In this document: positions 14,434-24,288 of the stretch, piece after piece
Numbering within the stretch: the stretch's first letter is position 1
How the letters are laid out: every line of letters begins with the position of its first letter
Source: a virus
DNA: 37,787 nucleotides
Virus record (IMG/VR): IMGVR_UViG_3300032093_000373
Location: 1 to 37,787 of that record
Strand: one strand, 5' to 3'
Notes under the pieces: generated by a model
What the model was told of the DNA's origin: nothing
The model's input: only the letters and a program-made list of their open reading frames with translations
Databases searched by the model: none
Made by a program: the position numbers and the translations under genes

Positions 14434-14439
14434 TTGCGT

Positions 14440-14473
14440 ACTATCTCGCACCGGCTTACCGGTGCGGGGTAGT
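14440..14473 (+). terminator. Strong 15-bp hairpin inside the early operon
   Basis: ACTATCTCGCACCGG (14440-14454) pairs fully with CCGGTGCGGGGTAGT (14459-14473), allowing two G-U pairs, around a CTTA loop. There is no T-run after it. It could be a partial terminator, an RNase processing site or a stabilising 3' end between the membrane-protein gene and the next cistron. Confidence 0.45.
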
Positions 14474-14516
14474 CTGCACCTAACTATAGGGCAGATTATG
14501 AGAAAAGGGGCAAGAG

Positions 14517-14651
14517 ATGAAAGAGTGTAAGAGCTGCAAGAGTACGGATCTAGTCTATAGCGGGGTGGATGCCTTTATTCTAGGCGTACCTACTGAGACC
14601 TATTGCTATCCCTGCGCTAATCGTCAAGCGCGAGAGGGTGCGGTGGCGTAA
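14517..14651 (+). CDS. Small four-cysteine zinc-ribbon protein (44 aa)
   Basis: CKSC (residues 4-7) and CYPC (30-33) make a classic four-Cys zinc knuckle. The site AAGGGGCAAGAG precedes the ATG and resembles the operon's repeated GAGGGCAAG element. The stop overlaps the next start (TAATG). Such mini zinc ribbons are common in actinophage early regions, but the role is unknown. Confidence 0.6.
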   Translation: MKECKSCKSTDLVYSGVDAFILGVPTETYCYPCANRQAREGAVA

Positions 14652-14967: not shown

Positions 14968-15082
14968 GAGTACGGTATAGTAAGGTAAGGCAATAGGTTA
15001 TCTCTTATCCTCTCTCCTATCGGTAGAGGGAGAGGGTAAGGGAGGGCAAGTTGCCCTAGATTAAAGTGGAAGAGGGCAAGTA
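14968..15082 (+). promoter_or_regulatory. Intercistronic control segment: TATAGT box, hairpin, palindrome and minicistron
   Basis: TATAGTAAGG near 14977 repeats the early-promoter -10 context but lacks a clear -35. A bulged hairpin of about 14 bp spans 15005-15039 (TTATCCTCTC pairing with GAGAGGGTAA, loop TCGG). AGGGCAA-G-TTGCCCT at 15043-15057 is a perfect palindrome that contains the repeated ribosome-site sequence. A five-codon GTG minicistron (MEEGK) ends exactly at the next start. It looks like an attenuator plus a remnant of a lost gene. Confidence 0.4.
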
Positions 15083-15346
15083 ATGCAACTACAAGAGATA
15101 GATACCTTGCAAGATCTAAGACTATGGGTGGAAGAGAATATGCAAGGTGCAGCGGTGGAAGAGGGTGAGGGCGGGATAGTTATTCGTACCAATCTCATCT
15201 CCACTATGGGAGGATATCTGCACCCGATAGAGGGAGAGTGCGATAGGTGCGGTGACTCTTATGAGCTATCAAGTAGAGATAACCGGTGCGGTAATTGTGG
15301 GAATTGTGGCGATTGCTGCACCCATAAGGCAGGGGAGGGCAAGTAA
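15083..15346 (+). CDS. Cys-rich early protein with C-terminal zinc-binding cluster (87 aa)
   Basis: The N-terminal half is an acidic helix/strand region. The C-terminal half carries CDRCGDSY and a dense CGNCGNCGDCC run near residues 69-79, suggesting one or two zinc sites. GAGGGCAAG precedes the ATG with six-base spacing. It ends in GEGK, where GAG GGC AAG is at once coding sequence and the ribosome site of the next gene. No specific function is recognised. Confidence 0.6.
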   Translation: MQLQEIDTLQDLRLWVEENMQGAAVEEGEGGIVIRTNLISTMGGYLHPIEGECDRCGDSYELSSRDNRCGNCGNCGDCCTHKAGEGK

Positions 15347-15522
15347 TGGCATACATCTACACGCTAGGAGAGGTGGCAAATATGACCCCTCAAGAACAAT
15401 TAGAAGGGTTAAAGGCCAGGCTATTCCCACCTAAGTTTATCGTAGGCACCGGTTATATTGACGCCAGGCAGGTAGCTATCGAATACTTGCAAGAACTTAT
15501 AGCCGAGGAGGGTAAAGAGTGA
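15346..15522 (+). CDS. Small early hypothetical protein (58 aa)
   Basis: MAYIYTLGEVANMTPQEQLE is followed by a Pro-containing loop (RLFPPKFIVGTGYIDA) and a helix (RQVAIEYLQELIAEEGKE). It starts in the repeated TAATG junction and ends GAGTGAG, overlapping a GTG start. The helix-loop-helix content suggests a small protein-binding module. It is unrecognised. Confidence 0.55.
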   Translation: MAYIYTLGEVANMTPQEQLEGLKARLFPPKFIVGTGYIDARQVAIEYLQELIAEEGKE

Positions 15523-15680
15523 GCGATTACTACTACGCTGCCGACCCTGCCTTCGACGATAACTCAGAATGGATCACGTGTGATACGTGTGAGAGAGAGT
15601 ATGACCGCAAAGAATATAATTCTGACACCTGCGTAGAGTGTGAGAATGAGCTAACTATCAAAGAGAGAGAGGGCAAGTAA
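15519..15680 (+). CDS. Small four-cysteine protein (53 aa, GTG start)
   Basis: CDTC (residues 21-24) and CVEC (38-41), separated by an acidic YDRKEYNSDT loop, form a likely zinc ribbon. The protein is acidic overall and tyrosine-rich at the N-terminus (MSDYYYAADP). The GTG overlaps the preceding stop. It ends EREGK at the repeated junction. Confidence 0.55.
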   Translation: MSDYYYAADPAFDDNSEWITCDTCEREYDRKEYNSDTCVECENELTIKEREGK

Positions 15681-15823
15681 TGGAGACACCAACAATTACA
15701 CAAGAGTTGGAATGGTGCGAGATCGAGCTGGCTAATATCAAGGCTGGCCTATTTTCTATGCACACACAAGAGTATATCGAGGGTGCAATATCTGCACTTA
15801 AACTAGCGAAAGAGGGCAAGTAA
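15680..15823 (+). CDS. Small helical early protein (47 aa)
   Basis: METPTITQELEWCEIELANI leads into two predicted helices and the C-terminus KLAKEGK. Both ends sit in exact copies of the GAGGGCAAGTAATG junction. It is probably an acidic two-helix protein of unknown role. Confidence 0.5.
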   Translation: METPTITQELEWCEIELANIKAGLFSMHTQEYIEGAISALKLAKEGK

Positions 15824-15981
15824 TGGAACTAGCAACTTGTATGGTATGCGCGGGCGACTTCGACGCTGAAAATATGATCGAAGATATAGAGGGGGCTAAG
15901 TACTGCCTACTAGATAGCGGTAATATCTGCGTAGTCTGCGGTATCTATAACCACGATTGTGAGGGGGAGAGTAATGAATAA
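15823..15981 (+). CDS. Small Cys-rich early protein (52 aa)
   Basis: CMVC (residues 6-9) and CVVC (36-39), with further Cys at 28 and 46, suggest metal binding. The rest is acidic. It starts at a copy of the repeated junction, and its 3' end overlaps the next gene by eight bases. Confidence 0.5.
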   Translation: MELATCMVCAGDFDAENMIEDIEGAKYCLLDSGNICVVCGIYNHDCEGESNE

Positions 15982-16141
15982 AGAATATCTAATTGCTAAG
16001 GCGGATCTATGCAAGGATCTAGCCATCGAGCAACTCACCAATGGTGATGAGAGAGAGGGCGTGGAGAACCTCAAGCGTATGATACGGGCGCTAGAGGAGA
16101 TCAACCTTATCAACTACCTAGAAGAGAGGAAGGGACGATAA
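15974..16141 (+). CDS. Small helical early protein (55 aa)
   Basis: The start at 15974 is preferred over an upstream in-frame codon because GAGGGGGAG lies four bases before it. MNKEYLIAKADLCKDLAIEQ continues as a largely helical, charged chain (ENLKRMIRALEEINLINYLEE). It is coupled to the next gene by ATAATG. The function is unknown. Confidence 0.55.
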   Translation: MNKEYLIAKADLCKDLAIEQLTNGDEREGVENLKRMIRALEEINLINYLEERKGR

Positions 16142-16380
16142 TGAAAGTAACTATGCGTAAAGATTTAGCTGAGCAGGGTATGAGTATCCCTTGCTTATAT
16201 CAGGACGGGGCCTACTTAGACGCTAGTACTGTGGCAGAAGCTACCTATCTAGGTGCTTTGGGTGATGCAGATAGCAATGAGATAGTGCTGCAACTAGCAA
16301 GAGGGCAAGGTGGATATAGCGAGATAGTTATAGTTATGTCCATTGACCTTGATTATATTCAGGAGGGTGACGATGACTAA
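16141..16380 (+). CDS. Acidic early hypothetical protein (79 aa)
   Basis: The chain shows beta-alpha alternation (ATYLGALGDADSNEIVLQLA, EIVIVMSIDLDYI) and an acidic tail EGDDD. The stop is overlapped by the start of the next gene; AGGAGGG near the 3' end serves as that gene's ribosome site. It could be a small inhibitor that mimics nucleic acid, but that is speculation from charge only. Confidence 0.55.
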   Translation: MKVTMRKDLAEQGMSIPCLYQDGAYLDASTVAEATYLGALGDADSNEIVLQLARGQGGYSEIVIVMSIDLDYIQEGDDD

Positions 16381-16615
16381 CTTCTATTCGACCAATGAGA
16401 ATCTGATCTACCTATATGAAGTCACCGACCCGCAAGGCGTAGCCATATGGGGAGGGGAGAACATTGAGGATATGTTTGACTGGTACTGGCGCTCACCAGA
16501 GGGGGCGAGGGTATTCATCTCCGCGTGGAATAGTAATGATGAGGACGCTCATATGGTGGGCAGACCTATCGAAGTGACCGCAATCGTAGGATCTAAGGTG
16601 GGTGAGGGCAAGTGA
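16373..16615 (+). CDS. Acidic aromatic-rich early protein (80 aa)
   Basis: The start at 16373 has GGAGGG five bases upstream. The chain (MTNFYSTNENLIYLYEVTDP and on) is mostly beta-strand-like, with a DMFDWYWRSPEG turn, and ends VGEGK in the repeated junction. It is acidic and compact. It is not recognised. Confidence 0.6.
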   Translation: MTNFYSTNENLIYLYEVTDPQGVAIWGGENIEDMFDWYWRSPEGARVFISAWNSNDEDAHMVGRPIEVTAIVGSKVGEGK

Positions 16616-16701
16616 GCTACGCCTTGGGTTTAATAGCAATTCTACTGGTAACATATGCACTGATAGTAACGGAGGATAAGTTTAATAATGGAGATCGCTA
16701 G
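16612..16701 (+). CDS. Tiny single-span membrane peptide (29 aa)
   Basis: The GTG at 16612 overlaps the previous stop (GTGAG) after GAGGGCAAG. Nearly all of the first 20 residues are hydrophobic (MSYALGLIAILLVTYALIVT), followed by a short polar tail. Coupling and an ideal ribosome site support translation. The size precludes assignment. Confidence 0.5.
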   Translation: MSYALGLIAILLVTYALIVTEDKFNNGDR

Positions 16702-16984
16702 AAGGATAGAGTCTGCCAAGCGCAGCGCAGTAAGCTATCGCAACTATCGGAGGGCGAGGGATAGGGCAATGACACGCCTATCCAATGCTTACCCTGAGAC
16801 ATACAAAGAACTGCTCGAACAGGAGAAAATTGTAGATGAACAGATGGGTAAGAAGTGGCTTGATATTGACGGCAGTACTGACCAGCATATGGATCTTAAC
16901 GCCAGTGCATCACTTACGGGTGGAGGAGAGGGCGACCAAGCCAGCTCCGGTCCAGACCAAGGCAACGATGGAGGAAAAGCGTGA
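16688..16984 (+). CDS. Early hypothetical protein with basic N-terminal helices (98 aa)
   Basis: The N-terminal 60 residues form arginine-rich helices (YRNYRRARDRAMTRLSNAYP, then ELLEQEKIVDEQMGKKWLDI), a pattern I associate with conserved actinophage proteins. The last 35 residues are low-complexity Gly/Ser/Asp. That tail is encoded in the stretch overlapping the lytic transglycosylase in another frame (149 bp), so it may be constrained by the second frame. GGAGG lies 12 bases before the ATG, a rather long spacing. Confidence 0.6.
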   Translation: MEIARRIESAKRSAVSYRNYRRARDRAMTRLSNAYPETYKELLEQEKIVDEQMGKKWLDIDGSTDQHMDLNASASLTGGGEGDQASSGPDQGNDGGKA

Positions 16985-17258
16985 GAACAAACGAATCGCC
17001 AAGCAATATAGTCGCGCTCTCGGATATACGGACAAGCAAACAACGTGCCTTATCACCTTATGGACCCGTGAGAGCAGGTTTGACCACCTCGCTAAGAACA
17101 GACAAGGATCCTCAGCTTACGGAATTGCTCAACTCCTTAGAGAGAAAAGTCGAGAGCCTGAACTTCAAATCCTTCACGGTATACGATACATTGGTCATCG
17201 CTATAGAGGCGATGCGTGTAGCGCTCTCCGACACTCAGACAGAAGAGGGTGGTACTGA
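16836..17258 (+). CDS. Membrane-anchored lytic transglycosylase (SLT-like), 140 aa
   Basis: Residues 7-24 are a transmembrane anchor or signal (SGLILTAVLTSIWILTPV), followed by an Ala/Pro/Lys linker. The C-terminal domain is goose-lysozyme/SLT-like: LWTRESRF with likely catalytic Glu79, SSAYGIAQ (92-99), QILHGIRYIGHRY and the terminal GWY. It would cleave peptidoglycan glycan strands from the outer face of the membrane. It overlaps two other frames, but its TGA overlaps the next ATG (TGATG), supporting translation. A shorter start at 16968 (AAGG five bases upstream) would lack the anchor. It is unusual in being in the early operon, far from the lysis genes. Confidence 0.72.
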   Translation: MNRWVRSGLILTAVLTSIWILTPVHHLRVEERATKPAPVQTKATMEEKRENKRIAKQYSRALGYTDKQTTCLITLWTRESRFDHLAKNRQGSSAYGIAQLLREKSREPELQILHGIRYIGHRYRGDACSALRHSDRRGWY

Positions 17259-17265
17259 TGTTTAA
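16981..17265 (+). CDS. Possible overlapping small protein (94 aa, GTG start), doubtful
   Basis: This frame lies almost wholly inside the transglycosylase gene. In its favour, the GTG overlaps the preceding stop as GTGA, as elsewhere in the operon, and the C-terminal half reads as a plausible acidic helical protein (VYDTLVIAIEAMRVALSDTQ). Against it, the N-terminal half looks like random translation of the lytic domain. Its stop also lies inside the following gene rather than at a junction. It is probably non-coding. Confidence 0.25.
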   Translation: MRTNESPSNIVALSDIRTSKQRALSPYGPVRAGLTTSLRTDKDPQLTELLNSLERKVESLNFKSFTVYDTLVIAIEAMRVALSDTQTEEGGTDV

Positions 17266-23733: not shown

Positions 23734-24288
23734 TTATCCTTTCTGTTGAGTAACTAATTGAATCGGAGGACAGGTGTTCACGTCAAGTACCGACGCGATC
23801 TTTATTGCGCGTTCTGCTACTACCTTAGACATAAGCAGGGACTTGTAAGAACCAGGTTTGAGTGAGTAGAGGTAGCCCAGAGCAAATGCTCCACCACTAC
23901 CTGCTGTAAAGAGTCCACGTTCACTGGCGTTGAATGATAGATCTGATCCGATGGAAAATAACATCCCATTGAAGGCAATGAGGTAGGCGAAGTTAGCTTC
24001 CTTATCGGATGGGTCGTATCCATTATCCTTAAAGGCAGCGTAGATACTTGGCAGTATCTTCTTACCCATCCACTCCACCGGATCATAGTTCTTATACGTT
24101 GGTGGTTTCCAATTAAACGCGAGGATATCTCCAGGTCTTGAGTCGCCCGTGATACCTATCAGGTAGTCACCTACGCTTACGATCTTAGGTGTCTGAGTAG
24201 AAATAATGCGCTGATCGTTATCGGTGATCTGCGAATCAGCAGCTAGTACTACGAAGTCAGGTCCTTGGATACCTACCAGAGTTGTCAT
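23734..24288 (-). CDS. Proteasome beta-like Ntn-hydrolase (184 aa)
   Basis: The chain begins M-TTLVGIQ, so removing Met exposes Thr1 with no propeptide. In mature numbering Asp17 (LAADSQ), Lys34 (TPKIVSV, the Lys33 equivalent), Ser130 in AGSGGAFALGYLY (Ser129 equivalent) and Asp169/Thr172 (LDVNT, the Asp166/Ser169 equivalents) all align with 20S beta/HslV catalytic residues. The length also suits a single beta subunit. No alpha subunit or ATPase partner is visible, so it may assemble alone like Anbu/HslV-type rings or join the host proteasome. It is the first gene of the minus early operon, with an apparently leaderless start. Confidence 0.85.
   Translation of the reverse strand: MTTLVGIQGPDFVVLAADSQITDNDQRIISTQTPKIVSVGDYLIGITGDSRPGDILAFNWKPPTYKNYDPVEWMGKKILPSIYAAFKDNGYDPSDKEANFAYLIAFNGMLFSIGSDLSFNASERGLFTAGSGGAFALGYLYSLKPGSYKSLLMSKVVAERAIKIASVLDVNTCPPIQLVTQQKG

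Follow-up and report, generated by a model that had tools for sequence, protein, structure and literature searches.

A repeated 14-nucleotide seam that joins unrelated small genes in one operon of an uncultivated phage

It is an old question by what means a phage can hold a series of tiny accessory genes that stay exchangeable and yet are expressed. Cluster K mycobacteriophages carry 13-bp start-associated sequences (SAS) in 11 to 19 copies, located beside the starts of non-structural genes of varied families (PMC3203893); any role of these sequences in translation initiation is putative (PMC3203893). Short conserved boundary sequences have been proposed for modular exchange among phages (as cited in PMC3029335 and PMC2327257), and mosaic junctions could arise at such sequences, although, in the account given in PMC3029335, they cannot be identified at most boundaries. 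T4-like phages have promoter/stem-loop (PeSL) cassettes (Arbiol 2010 and Comeau 2014, as cited in PMC4503421).

Here we analyzed a stretch of 37,787 bases (the window), the whole of IMG/VR record IMGVR_UViG_3300032093_000373, which has a GC content of about 46% and represents an uncultivated phage known only from metagenomes. A small-gene operon occupies about 13.6 to 16.6 kb on the plus strand, 5' of a transglycosylase-like gene at 16836-17258. The 14-mer GAGGGCAAGTAATG, referred to below as the seam, occurs in four exact copies (15072, 15335, 15669, and 15812), all confined to this operon and all on the plus strand, and no further copy was found in the window even when one mismatch was allowed. 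The exact copies and their variants are as follows.

15072..15085, plus strand: seam copy 1 (exact), at the uncoupled start of gene 15083-15346; on its 5' side is a noncoding gap with a long hairpin
15230..15240, plus strand: possible fossil seam, GAGGGAGAGTG, inside gene 15083-15346
15335..15348, plus strand: seam copy 2 (exact), forming the EGK-stop of gene 15083-15346 and the start of gene 15346-15522
15508..15521, plus strand: looser seam, GAGGGTAAAGAGTG, with a GTGA overlap between genes 15346-15522 and 15519-15680
15669..15682, plus strand: seam copy 3 (exact), forming the REGK-stop of gene 15519-15680 and the start of gene 15680-15823
15812..15825, plus strand: seam copy 4 (exact), forming the KEGK-stop of gene 15680-15823 and the start of gene 15823-15981
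15963..15976, plus strand: variant seam, GGGGGAGAGTAATG, read in another frame (EGESNE-stop), with an 8-nt overlap into gene 15974-16141
16604..16617, plus strand: seam variant, GAGGGCAAGTGAGC, in which the GEGK-TGA of gene 16373-16615 overlaps the GTG of 16612-16701

At 15335, 15669, and 15812, the seam encodes Glu-Gly-Lys and a stop, and the last ATG of the resulting TAATG overlap is the start codon of the next gene. A preliminary description of this DNA had read these junctions in the same way, and an exact-match count over the window found its four positions, with their coordinates and frames, to be correct. Its GTG variant at 16604 is indeed a TGA stop with an overlapping GTG, sharing only GAGGGCAAGT with the exact seam, and the looser versions that it placed near 14505 and 15507 are real, the former as the uncoupled start context of gene 14517-14651 and the latter as the GTGA overlap. 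It had also proposed that a five-codon gene remnant precedes the copy at 15072; the open frame there comprises only seven codons (IKVEEGK), and a remnant is therefore not demonstrated. The idea that seams at uncoupled starts are scars of deleted genes was rejected, as TA before the ATG was not enriched (26/131 versus 25/170 in the control; P = 0.28).

To place the seam among relatives, we used the transglycosylase as an anchor and collected 80 contigs that extend as far as 10 kb to either side of it, many of them short contigs from overlapping sampling series, so that locus counts do not represent independent lineages. Genes upstream of the transglycosylase were called with a simple dynamic-programming caller, a mechanical procedure whose bonus for overlapping starts raises the number of overlaps both in the test regions and in the controls. 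The resulting 913 proteins fell into 228 families (110 singletons), for which the F numbers are our own labels. Close relatives are the 32 loci whose transglycosylase is at least 76% identical, and near-identical loci were dropped by hand for the analysis of junction identity and spacer agreement and for most later tests. The window carries the following members of these families around its seams.

15083..15346, plus strand: F4, 87 amino acids, long form with a Cys-rich tail
15346..15522, plus strand: F9, 58 amino acids
15519..15680, plus strand: F3, 53 amino acids, with zinc-ribbon-like CxxC pairs
15680..15823, plus strand: F39, 47 amino acids, fused in frame to F3 in locus L136
15823..15981, plus strand: F40, 52 amino acids, with CxxC pairs; it has other neighbors in other contigs
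15974..16141, plus strand: F1, 55 amino acids, a backbone gene present in nearly all relatives
16141..16380, plus strand: F41, 79 amino acids, an accessory gene of few relatives
16373..16615, plus strand: F0, 80 amino acids, a backbone gene

The seam is specific to this operon, is flanked by unrelated genes, is independent of reading frame, and lies at junctions where gene content turns over in a mosaic fashion. In the 32 close relatives, the degenerate form GAGGG-N-R-AG-TAATG has 70 matches in 103 kb of operon plus strand, none on the opposite operon strand, and none on either strand of the flanks (175 kb downstream and 73 kb upstream, about 248 kb in all). In the operon, the start region contains GAGGG at 64% of the TAATG-coupled starts, 46% of the starts with another kind of overlap, and 38% of the uncoupled ones, compared with 2% of 323 control starts in the neighboring minus-strand operons. 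Across 195 TAATG junctions, the GAG, GG, R, A, and G positions are conserved, and the bases at the Gly wobble position are almost evenly distributed. The exact 14-mer, present in 12 loci, separates 13 upstream from 16 downstream families, and sister seams with the spacers AGAG, TAAG, TGAG, and CGAG show the same behavior. A second junction string, GTGAGCGCGTG, was observed in the upstream half of the operon in relatives, 5' of F2, F5, F8, F31, and others (11 on the operon plus strand, 1 on the operon minus strand, and 0 elsewhere), and is absent from the window. Among viral contigs, the exact 14-mer gave at least 120 matches, each single-copy among the matches listed, a result that is uninformative on other phage groups; annotated phages yielded just two weak DNA matches.

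We consider the seam to be, most likely, an operon-specific start-associated ribosome-binding sequence that has become fused to the end of the preceding gene and that would make genes interchangeable. Its primary role is most likely translational, because the motif is also found at starts that have no gene ending upstream, 75 to 121 nt from any preceding gene. A purine-rich ribosome-binding stretch (GAGAGAGGG-N-RAG) would stand at a constant spacing from the start codon, and at many small-gene junctions the stop of the preceding gene would be folded into this stretch as TAATG, so that translation of the next gene would be coupled to the previous termination. Because unrelated genes end in, or follow, nearly the same 14 nt, their positions would be interchangeable: any gene made of a body plus a seam could be placed next to any other without losing its translation, and the operon would thus be a row of interchangeable cassettes, with genes gained, lost, or replaced at seam junctions. 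We infer that the motif drives initiation and that turnover is tolerated at seams owing to the ease with which the motif recombines or is replaced. Two findings weigh against this start-sequence view. GAGGG offers just a 4-nt Shine-Dalgarno match (GAGG), which leaves the conserved spacer RAG unexplained by ribosome pairing alone, and spacer variants agree more often within a genome (26%) than between genomes (14%; permutation P = 0.002), which would not be expected of a purely translational optimum and which hints at exchange or copying inside genomes.

Gene order in the operon is mosaic, with a backbone of roughly F2-F5-F7-F4-F3-F6-F1-F0, many interspersed accessory genes, and 86 types of gain or loss event between the same two neighbors. 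For example, F3 and F6 are joined directly by GAGGGCAAGTAATG in L131, and in L143 F35 sits between two copies of the seam; F6 and F1 are joined by GAGGGTAAGTAATG in L133 and have F61 between them in L131; and F4 and F9 are joined by GAGGGAGAGTAATG in L151 and have F21 inserted in L145. In many such events, the empty and occupied sites carry matching seams, and of 11 positions the empty site shares 6.1 with the right-hand junction of the occupied site, compared with 4.8 for other junctions of the same genome. Where the upstream gene is shared and the downstream gene is not, identity exceeds 90% at most seam positions and drops just past the start codon; where the downstream gene is shared, the similarity of the seams exceeds background only a little. 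Therefore, the seam is usually part of the 3' end of the upstream gene, and at F1 it tends to accompany F1. Per-gene identity between close relatives changes abruptly along the operon, as between the window and L128 (F8, 100%; F5, 98%; F4, 84%; F9, 95%; F39, 88%; F1, 82%; F0, 77%).

Over the whole operon, seam-like junctions (at least 11 of 13 positions) make up 46% of turnover junctions versus 22% of stable ones (P = 0.0002; P = 0.013 when collapsed by gene pair). This association arises partly because both turnover and seams are concentrated in the F4-F1 block, where 55% of junctions are seam-like versus 14% outside. Inside that most variable block, with only 19 pairs available (8 stable and 11 turnover), seam likeness did not differ significantly (P = 0.32), and turnover is frequent also in the first half of the operon, where seams are rare. 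The proposal of the preliminary description that identical seams let tiny genes be swapped is thus partly supported: gain, loss, and replacement have their boundaries at seam junctions, but the difference seen over the whole operon is not significant within the block. At 16604, the seam recurs, identical or nearly so, in only 8 loci of the close clade, and the junction is stable.

The strongest alternative, which we regard as a possibility of clearly lower standing, is that seams are targets of recombination, with 10 to 18 shared nucleotides enabling phage annealing or exonuclease functions to join non-homologous genes, so that seams spread together with genes. Active recombination at the seam is possible, and seams that promote recombination would account for the seam common to empty and occupied sites, for the resemblance of the empty site to the right-hand occupied junction, and for the within-genome agreement of spacers. 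The tendency of the seam to follow the upstream gene in most cases and the downstream gene at F1 is expected if exchange points fall inside the seam. The phage carries a PD-(D/E)XK exonuclease of the phage recombination type, and RecET-type systems are described in PMC2327257 as joining homologies of 5 to 13 bp at low frequency. However, stable and turnover junctions do not differ significantly inside the variable block, turnover is also frequent in regions with few seams, no annealing recombinase was identified in the phage, and 14 nt is short. Moreover, much the same picture would result if recombination were random and selection then retained the genes that are expressed.

A related and equally tentative suggestion is that the seam acts as a self-spreading joining code, in which one 14-nt sequence would end a gene, hold the ribosome site, provide the start codon, and supply homology for recombination; single genes could then move between phages as units that are translated on arrival. 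Under the same suggestion, loss of the stop within a seam might fuse neighbors into two-domain proteins, with the F3-F39 gene of L136 and the long form of F4 as candidate products. In L136 (7287-7592), F3 and F39 form a natural in-frame fusion with a stop-less seam between them (GAGGGCAAGGCAATG), which suggests that the two small proteins act together. Short relatives of F4 stop (YLHEREGE-stop) exactly where the Cys-rich, zinc-ribbon-like extension of the window's F4 starts, over the seam-like string at 15230. A search for a stand-alone gene that resembles the Cys-rich tail of the long F4 found none.

Chance combined with ordinary constraint, whereby the packing of a stop, a Shine-Dalgarno site, and a start into a purine-rich operon produces look-alike junctions, is improbable. 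GAGG and TAATG are functionally constrained and cover 9 of the 14 letters, and the count of 3-mismatch seams in the window (9 observed versus 3.6 expected) is weak taken alone. However, GAGGG is present at 68 of 119 translation-coupled TAATG junctions in the operon and at 0 of 20 in the downstream minus-strand operons, which largely refutes this explanation, and the spacer RAG is conserved without being so constrained. In addition, 300 dinucleotide shuffles of the operon yielded no occurrence of the degenerate seam and no 14-mer with more than two occurrences.

Even less probable is tandem duplication, in which the genes would be diverged copies whose ends still match. By eye, the small proteins of the window alternate between zinc-ribbon-like and apparently helical ones, as such a history might produce. 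The duplication reading was rejected on profile comparison of the main operon families: all-against-all profiles gave no convincing relationship between the families that seams join (highest probability 54%, most below 10%; F3-F4, 9%; F3-F40, 4%), and F9, F39, and F1 were not found to be related.

The nucleotides of the seam, rather than the peptide that they encode, are what is conserved. They are read in three frames, and the Glu-Gly-Lys tail is therefore a by-product. F3, for instance, ends in LTIKEREGK-TAA or in LTNKQMRERASK-TGA (with an ATGA overlap) over an identical gagagagagggcaagtaa, one frame apart, and F1 is entered through overlaps of 8 nt (after 16 upstream families), 4 nt (after 5), and 1 nt (after 8). 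That a C-terminal Glu-Gly-Lys peptide, such as a tag or degradation signal, is the conserved element is the least credible reading and was rejected on this frame independence: EGK or EGE does end many unrelated operon proteins, but the same nucleotides occur in other frames (RASK-stop, GESNE-stop) and the motif also precedes starts without an upstream gene.

The gaps of the operon hold structured RNA elements of several kinds. One, at 14436-14496 (plus strand), has homologues in most relatives, at one to three copies per locus, and consists of GCGUACUAUC, a long stem, GGUAGUCUGC, and a small second stem. In the long stem, 12 of 14 pairs are changed on both sides, and 98.4% of cells are paired, compared with 39 to 54% when slid. 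A covariance model recovered additional copies in operon gaps, and a comparison of the window stretch with Rfam returned no family at the gathering level, only chance-level matches. A second, longer hairpin type lies at 14968-15082 (plus strand), directly 5' of the first seam, and is preceded by GGTATAGTAAGG, a -10-element look-alike found 20 times on the operon plus strands of relatives and 0 times elsewhere; together they resemble a promoter plus stem-loop cassette. Operon gaps of relatives also contain elements resembling type II hammerhead ribozymes (CUGACGA, GAAAC, and GUC core), with 13 pattern matches, all on the operon plus strand (L165, 6417-6476, and gaps in L142, L151, L155, L159, L161, L166, L167, L171, L190, and L204); the L165 element scored 22.9 bits against Rfam Hammerhead_II (E = 0.011), below the gathering score.

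Three further coding features were observed in the window. The GTG at 16604 opens a 29-codon open reading frame (ORF) at 16612-16701 on the plus strand (VSYALGLIAILLVTYALIVTEDKFNNGDR followed by a stop), directly 5' of the transglycosylase region, whose single hydrophobic stretch would possibly fit a small membrane lysis protein. ORFs 16688-16984 and 16981-17265 (together 16688-17265, plus strand) overlap the transglycosylase-like gene at 16836-17258 almost completely in other frames and are open in 61 of 61 relatives, which suggests real overprinting. At 23734-24288 on the minus strand, residues 2 to 44 give a partial match to the Pfam proteasome subunit (E = 8.5e-7), and such a protein is unusual in a phage.

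Because related phages gain, lose, and exchange genes precisely between seams, the tiny genes that seams join are a clear natural case of plug-in gene cassettes, with the seams as a possible rather than an established driver of the exchange. For gene finders, the seam is a usable signal for phage genes of 40 to 60 codons. In this operon the boundary is explicit, recurs, can be quantified in dozens of relatives, and is missing from neighboring operons, and the recombination and translation hypotheses are therefore separable by experiment.

Among the systems described previously, SAS/ESAS resemble the seam in several respects. Like these, it is a short, asymmetric sequence repeated many times in a single orientation and confined to the half that holds the small non-structural genes (70 on the operon plus strand and 0 elsewhere); it adjoins the starts of different families, combines a Shine-Dalgarno core with conserved positions outside the pairing with 16S rRNA, and sometimes contains the upstream stop codon. 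Unlike SAS, which has the consensus GGGATAGGAGCCC and ends 3 to 7 bp before the start, the seam includes the stop and both abuts and includes the start codon, before 16 downstream families. The SAS consensus has one 2-mismatch match in the window (13471, other strand), which is at chance level, and no 17-bp ESAS inverted repeat was recognized beside coupled seams. As with PeSL cassettes as cited in PMC4503421, the seam is a repeated, putatively regulatory element in a region of intense gene shuffling, but it has neither the promoter nor the stem-loop of which a PeSL consists, and the separate hairpins in the operon gaps are the better analogue. Like the boundary sequences proposed for modular exchange, at least as these are presented in the sources cited above, the seam is a short sequence shared at the edges of exchanged modules, being present at empty and occupied sites in many of the 86 event types. 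Unlike those sequences, it doubles as coding tail, ribosome site, and start codon, and copies of it stand at one single-gene junction after another within the same operon.
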